DNA from: Euryhalocaulis caribicus
GTDB lineage: Bacteria > Pseudomonadota > Alphaproteobacteria > Caulobacterales > Maricaulaceae
Length of the DNA stretch: 64,000 nt
Assembly (NCBI RefSeq): GCF_000412185.1
Contig: NZ_ASJA01000003.1
Location: forward strand, 186,001 to 250,000
Direction of reading: 5' to 3'
Part shown: positions 11,358-26,681 of the stretch, one piece after another
Layout of the letters: each line of letters begins with the position of its first letter
Numbering within the stretch: the stretch's first letter is position 1
The notes under the pieces: generated by a model
Database searches by the model: none
What the model saw: the letters and a program-made list of their open reading frames with translations, nothing else
Told to the model about the DNA's origin: nothing
Program-made: the position numbers and the translations under genes

Positions 11358-11993
11358 ATGATCCGCATAGCCCCCGCCGCCCTCGCCGTGCTGGCCCTCG
11401 CCGCCTGCGGCGACTCCGGCGCCCCGGACACCGCCGCCCAGGCCCCGGCCGAAGCCGAAACCCAGACCGCGCCCGCCGAACCCGCCGCCCCGGCCGCCGA
11501 GGCGCCCGAGAACGCCGCCGACCGCTGGACGGTGGATCAGGCGCAGAGCGCGCTGACCTTCGCAGGCGAGATCGATGGCGAGGCGTTCGACGGCGAATTT
11601 TCCGACTGGTCGGCCGATATCTGGTTCGATCCGGATAATCTGGAAGGTTCGAAGATCGACGCCCGCGTCAATCTCGCCTCTCTGGGCACCGGCGATTCCG
11701 ACCGGGACGAAACGGCGACCTCCGCCGACTGGCTGGGGCCCGGCGAGGCGCGCTTTGTCTCGAACAGCGTGACCGCCACGCAGGGCGGCTATGCGGCGCA
11801 GGGCGTTCTGACCATCAAGGACCAGTCGCACCCGTTCAATCTGCCGTTCTCGGTCGCGATCAGCGGCGACACCGCCAACGCACAGGCCGCGTTCGGCTTT
11901 GAGCGCGCGGGCTGGAATGTCGGCGGCGGCGATTTCGATGGCGCGGTTTCCGACTCGATTTCCGTGACGATAGAGGTCGCGGCGACCCGCTAG
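11358..11993 (+). CDS. YceI-family lipoprotein
   Basis: A YceI-like beta-barrel (lipocalin-like) protein; the family binds polyisoprenoid or similar amphiphilic molecules in the periplasm. Residues 1-16 are a lipoprotein signal ending in LALAAC, so the protein is probably lipid-anchored. A long Ala/Pro/Glu linker follows (about residues 20-55). The YceI domain starts at DRWTVDQAQSALTF and contains DARVNLASLGTGDSDRDE and the end pattern GAVSDSISVTIEV. ATG 11358 was chosen over GTG 11346 because it starts a clean signal peptide. The stop shares CTAG with the convergent ygfZ gene. Probably an operon with the cytochrome b561 gene. Confidence 0.87.
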   Translation: MIRIAPAALAVLALAACGDSGAPDTAAQAPAEAETQTAPAEPAAPAAEAPENAADRWTVDQAQSALTFAGEIDGEAFDGEFSDWSADIWFDPDNLEGSKIDARVNLASLGTGDSDRDETATSADWLGPGEARFVSNSVTATQGGYAAQGVLTIKDQSHPFNLPFSVAISGDTANAQAAFGFERAGWNVGGGDFDGAVSDSISVTIEVAATR

Positions 11994-12766
11994 GGCGCGC
12001 CCGCCCGCAGCACGTCCACGCGCCGCCCGTCCGTCACGGGCGGCGTTTCCGCTTTCTCCAGCCGGTCGATGCGCAACAGGGCGATGGCGTCCGCGCCGTT
12101 GGAGGAGCGGATATCGCCCACCGGCTTGTCATCCGCGGTCACTTCCACGCCGTAGTCCGGCGCGCCGCCCTCCACCCTCACGGGCAGCATGCGCTTGCGC
12201 AGCGTTCCCTTGCGGTGCATTCGGCTGACCACTTCCTGGCCGACGAAACAGCCCTTCTTCAGATTGACCCCGTTGAACCAGTCCATCGCCGCGTCCGCGG
12301 GGAAAATGTCGGCGGGCTGGTAATCCTTGAACAGCTCCGGGACGCCCAGCGCGATGCGCGCTGCGTCATAACCGTCCACCGCCGGGACGCCCTCGCGCGG
12401 GGCGATCGCGCGCGGCGGCAGGCCATCATGGCGCGGATCGGCAAACGCGCCCGCGCCGTGCAGGACCACGCCCAGCGTGTCGCTGACATCGGCCACCTCG
12501 ATCTTTGCGCGCAGCTTGTACATCGCCAGCCGCTGCATCAGCGCCGCCGCGCCCTCCGCGGGCGTGTCGACATACAGCGCCCCGTCGCCGCCATCGCTGA
12601 TGATCATCTCAGCCAGGATCTTGCCCTGCGGGGTCAGCAGCGCGGCGAACACCGCATCGTCGCCCTTGGTCATCTCGTTGGTGACAAGGCCGTTGAGGAA
12701 TTCGCGCACATTCTCCCCGCTGATGCGAAGGACGGCGCGGTCGGTGAGGAGGGCGGGTTGCGTCAT
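11990..12766 (-). CDS. ygfZ: YgfZ/CAF17-like tetrahydrofolate-binding protein
   Basis: A folate-binding protein of the YgfZ/CAF17 family, which supports assembly or repair of a subset of Fe-S enzymes. The family signature KGCFVGQE occurs at residues 171-178, followed by SRMHRKG. The N-terminal GcvT-like fold includes FLNGLVTNEM and TPQGKILAEM. The 258-residue length is typical of alphaproteobacterial members. A dihydroorotase-like gene and a small membrane protein lie upstream in the opposite direction. The stop shares CTAG with the yceI-like gene. Confidence 0.92.
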   Translation of the reverse strand: MTQPALLTDRAVLRISGENVREFLNGLVTNEMTKGDDAVFAALLTPQGKILAEMIISDGGDGALYVDTPAEGAAALMQRLAMYKLRAKIEVADVSDTLGVVLHGAGAFADPRHDGLPPRAIAPREGVPAVDGYDAARIALGVPELFKDYQPADIFPADAAMDWFNGVNLKKGCFVGQEVVSRMHRKGTLRKRMLPVRVEGGAPDYGVEVTADDKPVGDIRSSNGADAIALLRIDRLEKAETPPVTDGRRVDVLRAGAP

Positions 12767-12898
12767 GCCGGGCTAGATGCGGGCGGCCGGGGCGTGTTGC
12801 AAGCCTGAACCGGCCCGCAAATCCATCATCCGGCCTTATTGCGTTGTCAGAAATCACTGACGGCGCGAAACTGCCGCCGGACCGACGGGGAGACGGAC

Positions 12899-13351
12899 AT
12901 GGACTGGAGCATTGCTGATTTCGTGATCATGGGCGCGCTGGTGACGGGCGCCGCGCTTGCGCTTTATCTGGCGTTCCGGCGTTCGGGCAGTCTGGCCTAT
13001 CGCGGCGCTTCGGCAATCGCGGCGCTGGGGACTTTCCTGCTGATCTGGGTGAATGGCGCGGTGGGAATCATCGGGTCGGAAAATCACGACGCCAATATGT
13101 TGTTCGTCGGCGTGCTGGCCGTGGGCTTCATCGGCGCCCTGATCGCGCGGTTCCGGCCGCGCGGCATGGCCGCCGCGCTGGGCGCGACGGCGCTTGCACA
13201 GGCGCTGGTCGCGCTCGCCGCCCTGGCCGCGGGATGGGGACAGGCCACCGATATCGTGTTCGCGACGGCCTTCTTCACCGCGCTCTGGGTGCTGTCTGCA
13301 TGGCTGTTCCGCCGCGCCGCGCAGGGGAAAGCGCCGGCCCCGGCCGCCTGA
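12899..13351 (+). CDS. Four-helix membrane protein, unknown function
   Basis: A 150-residue hydrophobic protein with four predicted transmembrane helices at roughly residues 5-25, 35-55, 65-83 and 95-138 (the last stretch may be two helices). The end is Ala/Pro-rich. The ATG at 12899 is preceded by GGGGAGACGG, a good ribosome site; an ATG 60 bases upstream would add a non-hydrophobic Cys/Arg-rich stretch and is unlikely. It lies between ygfZ (divergent) and the dihydroorotase-like gene (same strand, 93 bases on). No family was recognised. Confidence 0.68.
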   Translation: MDWSIADFVIMGALVTGAALALYLAFRRSGSLAYRGASAIAALGTFLLIWVNGAVGIIGSENHDANMLFVGVLAVGFIGALIARFRPRGMAAALGATALAQALVALAALAAGWGQATDIVFATAFFTALWVLSAWLFRRAAQGKAPAPAA

Positions 13352-13444
13352 CCCGCCGCGCGCAAAACTGGATTCTTCACGCTCCGCCCCGTTAAAAGAG
13401 GGCGGGCCGTATTTTCCGGTCCGCGTCAAAACGAAGGGCGAGAT

Positions 13445-14785
13445 ATGGCCGAGACCTATGATCTGATCGTACGCGGCGGCACCGTCGTCAATCACGCGGG
13501 CACGTTCCGCGCCGATGTCGGGATCACCGGCGGCAAGACCGTCTATATCGGCGATCTTTCGACCGCGGACGCGGGCGAGGTATTCGACGCCACCGGCCTG
13601 CACGTCCTGCCCGGTGTCATCGACACCCAGGTGCATTTCCGAGAGCCGGGGCTGGAGCGCAAGGAAGACCTTCAGGCCGGGGCGCGCGGCGCGGTTCTGG
13701 GCGGGGTGACGGCGGTATTCGAAATGCCGAACACCAACCCCACCACCACCGATCCGGACGCCATGGCCGACAAGCTGAAGCGCGCCAAGGGCCGGATGGA
13801 TTGCGACCACGCCTTCTATGTCGGCGGCACGCCGCAGAACACCGAACATCTGGGCGAGCTGGAGCGCCTGCCCGGCTGTTGCGGGGTCAAGGTCTTCATG
13901 GGCGCCTCCACCGGCAATCTCCTGATCGAGACCGACGAGGGCGTGGAGGCCGTGCTGCGCAACGTCAATCGCCGCGCCACTTTCCATTCGGAGGACGAAT
14001 TCCGGCTGGAAGAGCGCCGCTCGCTGGCCCGCCAGGGCGACTGGACCAGCCACACGGACGTCCGCGACGCCGAGGCCGCGCGCCTGTCGACCGAGCGCCT
14101 GATCCGGCTCGCCCGCAAATGCGGCAAGCGCATCCATGTCCTGCATGTCTCCACCCTGGACGAGATCCCGCTTCTGGCTGCCGCGCGAGATATCGCCACG
14201 GTCGAGATCACGCCCCAGCACCTCACGCTGGAGGGCCCTGAAGCCTATGAGCGCCTGAAGGGCCGCGCCCAGATGAACCCGCCCGTGCGCGGCGCCGATC
14301 ACCGCGCCGCGTTGTGGGAGGCCGTGCGTCAGGGCGTTGCCGACGTCATCGGCTCCGACCACGCCCCGCACACGCTGGAGGAAAAGGAAAAACCCTATCC
14401 GCAATCGCCCTCCGGTATGCCGGGCGTGCAGACCCTGCTGCCCCTGATGCTCGATCACGCAAACGCCGGCCGCCTCAGCCTTGAGCGCGTGGTGGACCTG
14501 ACCAGCGCCGGCGCCCAGCGCGTCTTCGGCACGGCCGGGAAGGGGCGTCTGGCCAAGGGCTATGACGGCGACCTGACCATCGTCGATATGAAAGAGAAGA
14601 AGGAAATCACCGACGCGATGATGGCCAACAAGTCCGGCTGGACCCCGTTCGCGGGCATGACCGTCACCGGCTGGCCGAAAGCCACCATCATCCGCGGCAA
14701 TATCGTGATGCGCGACGATGAAGTGGTCGCCGAAGGACTAGGCGAACCCGTCCGCTTCATGGAAACGTTTCAGCCGGAGGGCTGA
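13445..14785 (+). CDS. Dihydroorotase-like amidohydrolase with Gln-x-His metal motif
   Basis: An amidohydrolase-superfamily protein of 446 residues, closest in look to class I dihydroorotase (PyrC), which cyclises carbamoyl-aspartate to dihydroorotate in pyrimidine synthesis. Seen: VIDTQVHFREPG at about 58-69, EMPNTNP (94-100), a lysine K150 in GVKVFMG that could be the carbamylated ligand, FHSEDE with H182, IHVLHVST, and GSDHAPH. The first metal motif is Q62-x-H64 where His-x-His is usual. I recall the same Gln in an alphaproteobacterial PyrC-like subgroup, but could not check. The ribosome site AAGGGCGAG lies 7 bases from the ATG. The end overlaps the convergent DUF2235 gene by 16 bases. 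Confidence 0.85.
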   Translation: MAETYDLIVRGGTVVNHAGTFRADVGITGGKTVYIGDLSTADAGEVFDATGLHVLPGVIDTQVHFREPGLERKEDLQAGARGAVLGGVTAVFEMPNTNPTTTDPDAMADKLKRAKGRMDCDHAFYVGGTPQNTEHLGELERLPGCCGVKVFMGASTGNLLIETDEGVEAVLRNVNRRATFHSEDEFRLEERRSLARQGDWTSHTDVRDAEAARLSTERLIRLARKCGKRIHVLHVSTLDEIPLLAAARDIATVEITPQHLTLEGPEAYERLKGRAQMNPPVRGADHRAALWEAVRQGVADVIGSDHAPHTLEEKEKPYPQSPSGMPGVQTLLPLMLDHANAGRLSLERVVDLTSAGAQRVFGTAGKGRLAKGYDGDLTIVDMKEKKEITDAMMANKSGWTPFAGMTVTGWPKATIIRGNIVMRDDEVVAEGLGEPVRFMETFQPEG

Positions 14786-16059
14786 AACCGGGCGGCCAGC
14801 GCGGACAGCCGCTCCGCGGCCGATTTCGCCAGCGCCGCCGCTCCCTCCAGCAAATCTTTCAGCCCGTCCAGCGTCCCGGGGCGATAGGGCTTGCCCTCGG
14901 CCAGGTTCTCCGCCGCCTCGTTCCAGCGCAGAATGGCGCTCGCCGCCAGTTCCTCCACGGCGATGCGCGGCGGCTTCAGCTCTGCGGCCAGTTCCGCCCG
15001 GCCCAGCTTTTCCAGCCGCTCGACCTCTTCGCGATAAGCCTTTTCCAGCACCGCCAGACGGTCCTTTTTCGGCAGCCGCCGGGTAATAAAAGACGTCAGC
15101 CCGCCCTTGCGCGCCGCCGAGGAGATATTCTCCAGCGCCGCCCGGTGGTCGGGCCGCGCGGTGCGCAGCGGCGTATCGGGCAGGGGGGAATATTCCAGCC
15201 CCGCCTCCAGCGCGCCCTCCGCAATCCACAGAAGCGCCGCGTCGCTCAGCCCCGTGATGTCGCCGCCGCCGCCGACAGAGCCGTGATCGCCCGGAAACCA
15301 GGCTTGCTGCACAGTCTCGGGATCGTGGCTTTCGTCCGGCGTCCACAGCGTCGGTGAGAAGCTCTCCCGCTTCTCGTCAATCGCCACGGCGTGACGCCCG
15401 GCGCGGATCATCGCGCTCAGCTGGGTGTCGTGGAAGGCGAACTTTTCGTTCCGCTGGAACAGGCCGGTGATGAATGTATCGGGCAGGCCCAGAGAGCCGA
15501 CCGTGTCCCACACCCCCAGAAAATCCACCCGCAGACGCGGCGGCGGATCGGCCTCGGCCTTCCGGTGCGCGATATCGCGGTCGTTCAGTATGTGATCGGC
15601 GGCGTAGCGGGCGCGGAATTCCAGCGCCTTCTCCCCGTTCGGGTGCCCGGCTTCGCTGGCGTCGCGATAAAGCGCAATCGCCTCGTCCACGCGGGAGGCG
15701 TAGCGCCGCTGGATAATGCCGCAATTGCGGATCAGGCCGCACAGGCTGCGCGCGGTGAACGCCCCGCGCGAAAAGCCGAAAACGTATATCTCGTCGCCCG
15801 GCTGGTAATTGAAGATCAGGAAGCGGTAGGCGTCCTCGATATTGCGCAGCAATCCCTTGCCGGTCGCTCCGCCGATCAGCTTGTCCACGCCCTTGGCGAC
15901 CGCCGTGCCCGATCCCACCCCGTCATCGTAGAAAACCAGTTGCCGCACGCCGTCACGGGCCACCGGTTCCACGGATTCGGCCAGTTTCACGACATTGGTC
16001 GCAAAGCGGGAATCCAGCCGGTTCCACGTTCCGTCGCAGAAGATCGCCAGCCGCGCCAT
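14770..16059 (-). CDS. DUF2235 (Tle1-like) alpha/beta hydrolase
   Basis: A 429-residue member of the DUF2235 family, alpha/beta hydrolases that include the type VI secretion phospholipase Tle1. The start MARLAIFCDGTWN is the family opening, followed by FYDDGVGSG (43-51), the nucleophile elbow GFSRGA with Ser97 (95-100), LGVWDTVGSLG (a candidate Asp) and WFPGDHGSVGGG with a candidate catalytic His near residue 255. No signal peptide. No VgrG, adaptor or immunity gene is nearby, so a secreted-toxin role is not supported; a cytoplasmic lipase/esterase is possible. The C-terminus overlaps the end of the dihydroorotase-like gene by 16 bases, tail to tail. Confidence 0.85.
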   Translation of the reverse strand: MARLAIFCDGTWNRLDSRFATNVVKLAESVEPVARDGVRQLVFYDDGVGSGTAVAKGVDKLIGGATGKGLLRNIEDAYRFLIFNYQPGDEIYVFGFSRGAFTARSLCGLIRNCGIIQRRYASRVDEAIALYRDASEAGHPNGEKALEFRARYAADHILNDRDIAHRKAEADPPPRLRVDFLGVWDTVGSLGLPDTFITGLFQRNEKFAFHDTQLSAMIRAGRHAVAIDEKRESFSPTLWTPDESHDPETVQQAWFPGDHGSVGGGGDITGLSDAALLWIAEGALEAGLEYSPLPDTPLRTARPDHRAALENISSAARKGGLTSFITRRLPKKDRLAVLEKAYREEVERLEKLGRAELAAELKPPRIAVEELAASAILRWNEAAENLAEGKPYRPGTLDGLKDLLEGAAALAKSAAERLSALAARFQPSG

Positions 16060-16149
16060 GGGCGAAGAATACCCTCGATGGGCGACCGCCGACAGGATTT
16101 TTCTATCGTGGGTTAAATAACGGCGTGAATTTCCGGCATGGCTGCAGTT

Positions 16150-16330
16150 TTAGCCCCTAGCGGACGCCGGATTCGCTTCCCATGTGCGTTGAACCAAAGC
16201 CGGCGTCCCTCCCCCTATAGAAGCCGGCGACCCCCTGCCGTTGCGCCCCCCAATAGGCAACGGTGGATTCGGCGGCCGGGCCATGACGCAGTCTCCCCCA
16301 AGGCGCGTGGTCCGGCCGTCATTCTTTATA
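16150..16330 (+). ncRNA. Candidate small RNA with C-rich apical loops
   Basis: The 329-base gap 16060-16388 holds three well-formed hairpins on the plus strand. Hairpin 1 pairs 16162-16170 with 16200-16208 (9 bp). Hairpin 2 pairs 16238-16244 with 16257-16263 (7 bp) and has six C in its 12-base loop. Hairpin 3 pairs 16271-16285 with 16306-16320 (about 15 bp with GU pairs), has CUCCCCC in its loop, and is followed by AUUCUUUAU. Unpaired CCCUCCCCCUAUAG and GACCCCCUG link them. Repeated C-tracts in loops are typical of small RNAs that pair with Shine-Dalgarno sequences (the CCUCC-loop type of alphaproteobacteria). The exact ends and promoter are not determined; an AT-rich patch lies at 16095-16120. 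It could instead be the leader of the gene at 16389. It does not match 6S, SRP or tmRNA as I know them. Confidence 0.45.
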
Positions 16331-16388
16331 AATGGCCGCGCCTTATCGTTTCCCCGGCAATGAACCGCGAAACGAAAGAAGGCGCGCC

Positions 16389-16601
16389 ATGTCCCAGTCA
16401 AACGGCCTGATAGAGATCAAGGTGCGCCAGATGTTGGCCGGCGGCATGGTGGAAGGCCTGATCCATGTCCCCGTGGAATCGGTGGACTGGTTCGGCAGGA
16501 TCGATGAGCGCGACATCGTCTGCGTCCGCGGCGAGAAATTCACCGTGAAGGACATCGCTCAATTGTCGGAAGATATGAAGGCGGCGCGCGGCGGGGCCTA
16601 G
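16389..16601 (+). CDS. Small hypothetical protein (70 aa)
   Basis: A 70-residue soluble protein starting MSQSNGLIEIK, with a mixed beta/alpha look (EIKVRQML, VEGLIHVPVESVDWF, DIVCVRGEKFTVKDI). The ATG at 16389 is preceded by GAAAGAAGGCGCGCC, with GAAGG 8 bases away. It follows the hairpin-rich region 16150-16330. Its TAG stop shares CTAG with the convergent gene at 16598. No family was recognised. Confidence 0.6.
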   Translation: MSQSNGLIEIKVRQMLAGGMVEGLIHVPVESVDWFGRIDERDIVCVRGEKFTVKDIAQLSEDMKAARGGA

Positions 16602-26556: not shown

Positions 26557-26681
26557 CCTTCGAGACGCCCTTCCGGGCTCCTCAGGCTAAGGGATCGGGG
26601 GGGGTGAAGCCCTCTTCCCCTTAACCCTCCCCATCACCCTCACCCTGAGGAGCCGCGCCTTCAGGCGCGGCGTCTCGAAGG
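26557..26681. repeat. Palindromic intergenic repeat A
   Basis: The gap 26433-27009 holds no gene. Its first repeat has 13-bp outer arms CCTTCGAGACGCC (26557-26569) and their complement (26669-26681), and 11-bp inner arms GGCTCCTCAGG (26576-26586) and complement (26644-26654). The sequence type (cttcgagacg ... ctgaggagc) resembles REP-like intergenic repeats of alphaproteobacterial genomes. It can fold as one long cruciform. Confidence 0.8.

Follow-up and report, generated by a model that had tools for sequence, protein, structure and literature searches.

A C-rich element between divergent genes

The question raised by this locus is what a cluster of C tracts does in a gap between two divergent genes of Euryhalocaulis caribicus. 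We studied a 64 kb stretch of contig NZ_ASJA01000003.1, referred to here as the window, and ran some scans over 244 kb of the contig. The gap is 330 nt long and the C-tract element lies inside it on the + strand. With moderate confidence, we explain the element as a lineage-specific, trans-acting small RNA of the C-rich-loop kind that would block ribosome binding. The genes that border the gap are as follows.

14770 to 16059, - strand: gene with a Tle1-like catalytic domain (PF09994), divergent, left border of the gap (Pfam match and open reading frame list)
16389 to 16601, + strand: orphan 70-aa open reading frame, possible downstream gene of the element (coding-like codon positions)

The 70-aa frame and three neighbouring genes show the usual high third-position GC, and a good purine-rich ribosome site stands upstream of the frame. 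The gap itself shows no coding signal, and its flat codon-position GC ruled out a protein-coding reading; a repeat-element reading was rejected on the single copy of the element in the genome. Searches of Pfam and NCBIfam returned no family for the 70-aa protein, and no convincing homologue of it was found in 136 other genomes of the family or in the genome collection.

The Tle1-like gene was present at E<=1e-40 in 11 of 98 relatives and absent from the one congener compared. Synteny with this congener starts at about 16600, and the C-tract element is absent there. A block of about 12850-16600, spanning the end of the gene at 11990-12766 to the 70-aa frame and holding a dihydroorotase-like gene, the Tle1-like gene, the element and the 70-aa frame, is non-syntenic in the congener, where its flanks lie on two different contigs.

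Predicted fold and exposure of the C tracts

Runs of five or more C on the + strand start at 16211 (C5), 16231 (C5), 16246 (C6) and 16295 (C5). The + strand of the 64 kb holds 45 such runs, with a maximum of four per 91 nt that is reached at this element, and G5 runs never occur twice within a 91-nt stretch of the 64 kb. The predicted fold places the tracts as listed here, the two 5' hairpins being alternatives.

16162 to 16208, + strand: alternative 5' hairpin with a 9-bp stem (16162-16170 with 16200-16208) that leaves segment 1 mostly as linker (equal-energy fold)
16199 to 16228, + strand: hairpin 1, 6-bp stem, loop GUCCCUCCCCCUAUAGAA with C tract 1 (16211-16215), segment 1 being the C-rich part (fold)
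16231 to 16235, + strand: C-rich linker with C tract 2 (fold; mean unpaired probability 0.63)
16235 to 16266, + strand: hairpin 2, 10-bp stem, loop GCCCCCCAAUAG at 16245-16256 with C tract 3 (fold; loop unpaired 0.96)
16271 to 16320, + strand: hairpin 3, 18-bp stem with one bulge, loop AGUCUCCCCCAAG at 16290-16302 with C tract 4 (fold; loop unpaired 0.99)

The tracts at 16246 and 16295 thus form part of the apical loops of strong hairpins of 10 and 18 bp, and the other two are C-rich linkers. Two 5' folds of equal energy (-72.8 kcal/mol) contain either the 9-bp or the 6-bp hairpin, and the first C-rich linker is inside the loop of the 6-bp hairpin in one of them. Hairpins 2 and 3 appeared in nearly all low-energy folds inspected.

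Compared with shuffled sequences, the + strand of 16138-16335 folded with a z of -2.28, and 6 of 200 shuffles were as good. We also held the C tracts in place and block-shuffled the remaining sequence (n=500). Mean unpaired probability of the C tracts was 0.85 against 0.55 +/- 0.11 in these controls, only 1 of which was at least as high; the fold energy was matched by 7 controls, and energy and exposure jointly by none of the 500. The preliminary description, which had reported stable hairpins with C5-C6 tracts in two apical loops and two C-rich linkers, holds in these points. It had also read the bases at the C tracts as a repeated functional unit, and a repeated loop motif was indeed recovered: CCCCC[AT]ATAG occurs twice in 244 kb of contig (both strands), both times in the element and 36 nt apart.

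The tracts might instead act on the other strand or as DNA, for example as a G-quadruplex in the leader of the Tle1-like gene, since the tracts read as four G5-G6 runs on the complement, where the Tle1-like gene begins at 16059. We regard this as very unlikely. The - strand folded no better than its shuffles (z 0.16, 110 of 200 as good), the G tracts seem too widely spaced for the usual quadruplex rule, and such a role would leave the unpaired place of the tracts between + strand stems unexplained.

A chance or decaying intergenic arrangement with no RNA function has more in its favour and is still rather unlikely. The element was picked by a reader out of 64 kb, and selection is therefore in play; however, the joint rarity of its fold and exposure among the controls and the doubled motif with no other copy in 244 kb both argue against chance.

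Fit of loop 3 and segment 1 to ribosome-binding sites

The explanation of the element as a small RNA that targets ribosome sites was examined at 200 gene starts, called by a crude method on this contig, by counting 6-mer complements of each C-rich segment at -22 to -1. Loop 3 (AGUCUCCCCCAAG) gave 43 complements against 12.4 +/- 4.4 in shuffled regions (0 of 200 as high) and against 8.1 +/- 5.7 for shuffled loops (0 of 300). Of its 56 complements between -60 and +30, 34 sit at -20 to -11. This position-specific match is a further point against a chance arrangement. Segment 1 gave 33 complements against 18.9 in shuffled regions (1 of 200) and 13.5 for shuffled loops (6 of 300). At the same 200 starts no enrichment was seen for loop 2 (10 against 10.7 in shuffled regions, 120 of 200) or for the second linker (6 against 11.7, 195 of 200).

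The k-mer test was chosen after the result for duplex energies had been seen; mean duplex energy in ribosome-binding regions did not differ from that in coding windows for any of the four segments (p 0.28, 0.89, 0.22 and 0.95). The pairing with Shine-Dalgarno sequences that had been proposed from the C-rich loops gained support from complement counts for segment 1 and loop 3, and none from loop 2, the second linker or the duplex energies. For comparison, the shorter motif of the ar14 small RNA family gave 20 against 8.0 (0 of 200) in the same test, and a 16S tail 22 against 12.1 (5 of 200). Some match to Shine-Dalgarno sites is to be expected of any CUCC-bearing loop.

The exact complement of GUCUCCCC, GGGGAGAC, occurred 5 times at the 200 starts, where 0.05 would be expected from coding sequence. 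Sites of this type are found, for example, in the leaders at window positions 12899 and 37494. Across the whole genome the pattern GGGGAGACN{3,14}ATG was found 29 times against 2 for the reversed pattern; it was present in 30 of the 31 genomes examined and above its control in 29. As an observation on the order at large, GGGGAGAC shortly before ATG is a frequent spelling of the ribosome site in many of its genomes (the own genome and 30 relatives).

Nine genes carry an 8-mer complement upstream. A Pfam scan of eight of them gave matches above the cut-off for three (HlyD-type, MotA/TolQ/ExbB and ThiF), sub-cut-off matches for two and none for three, and these candidate targets are too few to show a functional theme.

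Proposed mode of action and transcript boundaries

Four observations underlie the proposed mode of action: the + strand folds better than its shuffles, its C tracts are exposed, the gap lacks a coding signal, and complements to two segments are enriched at Shine-Dalgarno positions of this genome. The + strand from about 16125 or 16160 to 16320 would encode a small non-coding RNA; we infer its transcription, its separateness from the 70-aa mRNA, its action in trans and its repressing effect. Stable stems would keep segment 1 (GUCCCUCCCCCU) and especially loop 3 (GUCUCCCCC) single-stranded, and both would pair with purine-rich ribosome-binding sites of the GGGGAG and GGGGAGAC types in mRNAs. Sites paired in this way would be hidden from the ribosome and translation would be lowered, and loop 2 (GCCCCCCAAUAG) may serve rarer G-run targets or a protein. 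Such an RNA, if made, would add a regulator that targets ribosome sites to an alphaproteobacterial family for which the literature searched describes no small RNA. It would also offer a way to ask, from sequence only, which RNA loops fit the ribosome sites of their own genome.

Two features may mark the ends of a transcript.

16089 to 16118, + strand: weak promoter-like site, CCGACA, 18 nt, TTAAAT, with 8 of 12 consensus bases (below the scanner threshold of 9)
16321 to 16330, + strand: T-rich tail ATTCTTTATA, a weak terminator-like tail or a -10-like box of the next gene (sequence; 1.7% of positions by chance)

Two further promoter-like sites with 8 of 12 bases lie on the - strand, so the site at 16089-16118 is weak. 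A scan for consensus terminators and sigma-70 promoters found none, with a terminator scanner whose loop limit of 8 leaves out the 13-nt loop of hairpin 3. The preliminary description had named a U-rich end after hairpin 3; the T-rich ATTCTTTA does directly follow the stem, and it is a weak tail, with 5 T in 8, a frequency reached at 1.7% of positions. It overlaps TTTATAAAT (16325-16333), which could serve as a -10 box for the downstream gene. The sigma-EcfG promoter has the consensus GGAAC, a spacer and CGTT, and no GGAAC box was found on either strand of 16060-16389.

In the main rival reading, the 70-aa gene at 16389 has the element as its structured 5' leader, which would exert control in cis or be cut from the mRNA of that gene. 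We consider it somewhat unlikely. The element and the gene share a strand, the start codon follows the end of hairpin 3 at 69 nt with no convincing terminator in between, and the 70-aa frame has a coding-like codon pattern. However, TTTATAAAT could start the gene after the element, and the C-rich loops match the ribosome sites of other genes, with no G-run seen upstream of the 70-aa gene.

Comparison with known small RNAs

A trans-acting RNA of the kind that we favour would have precedents in other bacteria. According to the cited portions of the sources, NfeR1/ar14 and B11/6C act on mRNAs through tandem C-rich loops (PMC10746234, PMC10470900). The element resembles the ar14 family of Rhizobiales (RF02344; NfeR1, SmelA075/SmelA099), for which the portions consulted describe three or four hairpins with unpaired, C-rich motifs complementary to Shine-Dalgarno sequences and stems that differ greatly while the motif stays (PMC3927594, PMC10746234). 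However, the unpaired parts of three ar14 hairpins all show the same CCUCCUCCC, whereas the window element has CCCUCCCCC, CCCCCCAAUAG and GUCUCCCCC. The ar14 covariance model gave no match at E up to 10 in 16130-16390.

The element also shares two C-rich hairpin loops with the actinobacterial 6C RNA (RF01066), of another phylum. For its member B11, one C-rich loop, whichever of the two, is reported to be enough for repression of a target whose 5' UTR carries six G (PMC10470900). Like that of ar14, the 6C covariance model found nothing in the gap up to E 10. A Rfam scan of the 64-kb window at gathering thresholds returned no family match. The best sub-threshold match in the gap was Scr3202 (RF02833) from Streptomyces, whose model aligned end to end to 16231-16322 and scored 32.4 bits (E 0.004 for 261 bases), below its gathering score of 52; it too has two tandem hairpins with C-rich loops and comes from another phylum.

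In GsrN of Caulobacter and PmaR of Agrobacterium, an exposed C-rich loop pairs with G-rich mRNA sites, as described in the cited portions (PMC5869019, PMC6234868). Both have one C-rich loop, in contrast to the several of the window element, and both are reported there mainly as activators; for PmaR, the loop can act positively and away from ribosome sites (PMC6234868). GsrN has a sigma-EcfG promoter, whereas no GGAAC box is seen in the window gap. In the proposed mode the element would work like ar14/NfeR1 and 6C/B11, but our tests place it in neither family.

Searches for homologues in the family

The preliminary description had suggested a new alphaproteobacterial family, and the searches did not show this for the locus. 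A DNA search of 60 relatives gave no convincing homologue; matches of 22-52 nt appeared in 4 of them, and two loci among these (L002, L003) were set aside as gene-like sequence by eye. A structure model built from the window element only (R1) matched 29 of 118 relatives at E<=1, with a best score of 22.7 bits and nothing convincing, and the 28 of these 29 loci that were inspected had no tandem hairpins with C-tract loops. A third model, R3, described below, found no convincing homologue in 136 other genomes of the family. There is accordingly no conservation or covariation to report at this locus, the family searches having returned no homologue. This lack of conservation, with the absence from the one congener compared, favours a chance arrangement.

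A search of 398 genomes for a triple C-tract pattern matched the own genome and five others with unrelated sequence, and its reversed control matched 9 genomes; this pattern was dropped.

A structured element in the putR-putA gap of a related genus

Because the stems of ar14 are reported to diverge while its loops stay, we ran a search with a loop-only pattern, CCCCCWATAG twice, over a collection of 84,980 species and viral contigs. It gave 87 loci (62 in genomes, 25 viral), 7 of which had both motifs in predicted loops. Two strong stems were read in only two of the seven, L106 (Caulobacterales) and L113 (Caulobacter), whose hairpins lie between putA and a divergent gene for an Lrp/AsnC-type regulator, which we take to be putR. 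Their R1 scores were 31.7 and 30.5 bits, respectively.

A model of the window element with L106 and L113 (R2) matched 32 of 390 genomes of that family at E<=0.01, and 22 of the 30 loci examined adjoin putA; the eight that are not beside putA (L200-L207) were dropped. R2 also finds the element in a genome (G092) where the R1 search gave no match to it. The regulator gene was found at 21 of the 22 putA loci, the remaining one (L182) being a short locus. At all 22, the element lies upstream of putA and on its strand, and all belong to one genus, presumably Caulobacter because the L113 element reappears as L178 with the same score. The elements are at L178-L199, L106 and L113 (for example L113:6828-6990 and L184:1436-1631). 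This constant place before putA, on the same strand, speaks for a leader at the window locus as well; however, the gene behind the element there is an unrelated one.

The putA-gap element is a conserved multi-hairpin structure that retains its C-rich loops and a 3' tail rich in C. A consensus fold of 18 elements without that of the window recovered the same two-hairpin plan, with 5 of 31 pairs changed on both sides and a covariation term near zero. In an alignment of 22 rows that includes the window (A7), 92.8% of cells pair and 20 of 28 pairs changed on both sides, above all 500 shuffles, in an alignment that is model-fitted and leans towards its structure and with most double changes coming from three divergent rows, one of them the window. 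A Rfam scan of L106 and L113 reached no gathering score; the L113 gap gave weak matches to ar14 (17.8 bits, gathering score 58.8) and to 6C (16.5 bits). Among the papers listed in literature searches on Caulobacter and putA, none dealt with such an RNA. A further find of this work is therefore a well-conserved structured element next to putA, the gene for proline dehydrogenase, shared by 22 genomes of one related genus.

In one genome that carries the putA element (G572), GGGGAGAC was present at 0 of 147 starts. Complements of window loop 3 numbered 19 there against 7.8 (0 of 200), and those of the third loop of its own element 25 against 13.0 in shuffled regions (1 of 200), with 15 of 300 shuffled loops as high. 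In the G572 element, complements of the loops of hairpins 2 and 3 and of the tail were enriched relative to shuffled regions, and weakly or not relative to shuffled loops.

Relation between the two elements

In both the window element and the putA-gap element, hairpins with C-rich loops follow one another on a single strand of a gap between divergent genes, and the last stem is longer. The putA-gap element differs in its stems and flanking genes, and has in addition a 5' hairpin and a conserved 3' tail rich in C. L106 and L113 had been selected by the window's own loop motif, and we therefore compare the two with R3, a model of 18 putA-gap elements that lack the search motif. R3 gave the window element 16.6 bits at E 1.2, the third of 10 matches listed in 244 kb, and did not recognise it, so common descent is not established; in our judgement it is possible and rather doubtful. 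In the family, R3 matched 3 of 137 genomes at E<=0.5 (one at E 0.0023), with no match in the window's own genome. Among the loci read, L208 is a single hairpin with a C-rich loop and L209 looks unrelated. GUCUCCCC, which lies outside the search pattern, is present in 13 of the 18 putA-gap elements, in the third loop by alignment, and in window loop 3.

It is conceivable, though unlikely, that the window and putR-putA elements represent an undescribed small-RNA class of the order, with loops tuned to GGGGAG(AC) rather than to the canonical AGGAGG, and in which the loops persist through turnover of stems and genomic site. If such a class were real, one RNA could brake a set of mRNAs chosen by their Shine-Dalgarno spelling.

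Other C-tract and repeat arrangements were met along the way. L050 was rejected as a chance protein match; in this genome (G079), a hairpin with a C6 loop lies at L050:1510-1590 between two genes that look like ahpC and ahpD, an assignment we assume. One genome (G254; L072, L075-L081) has a repeated palindromic element with three CCCCCWA tracts in eight places. Two Sphingobium species (L095:6168-6220 and L148:5070-5122) have a region with two CCCCCAATAGGTCAGG copies about 40 nt apart, unlike the window element. In the window itself, inverted repeats that include a G8 run lie between genes at 26576-26676 and may be a dispersed palindromic repeat.
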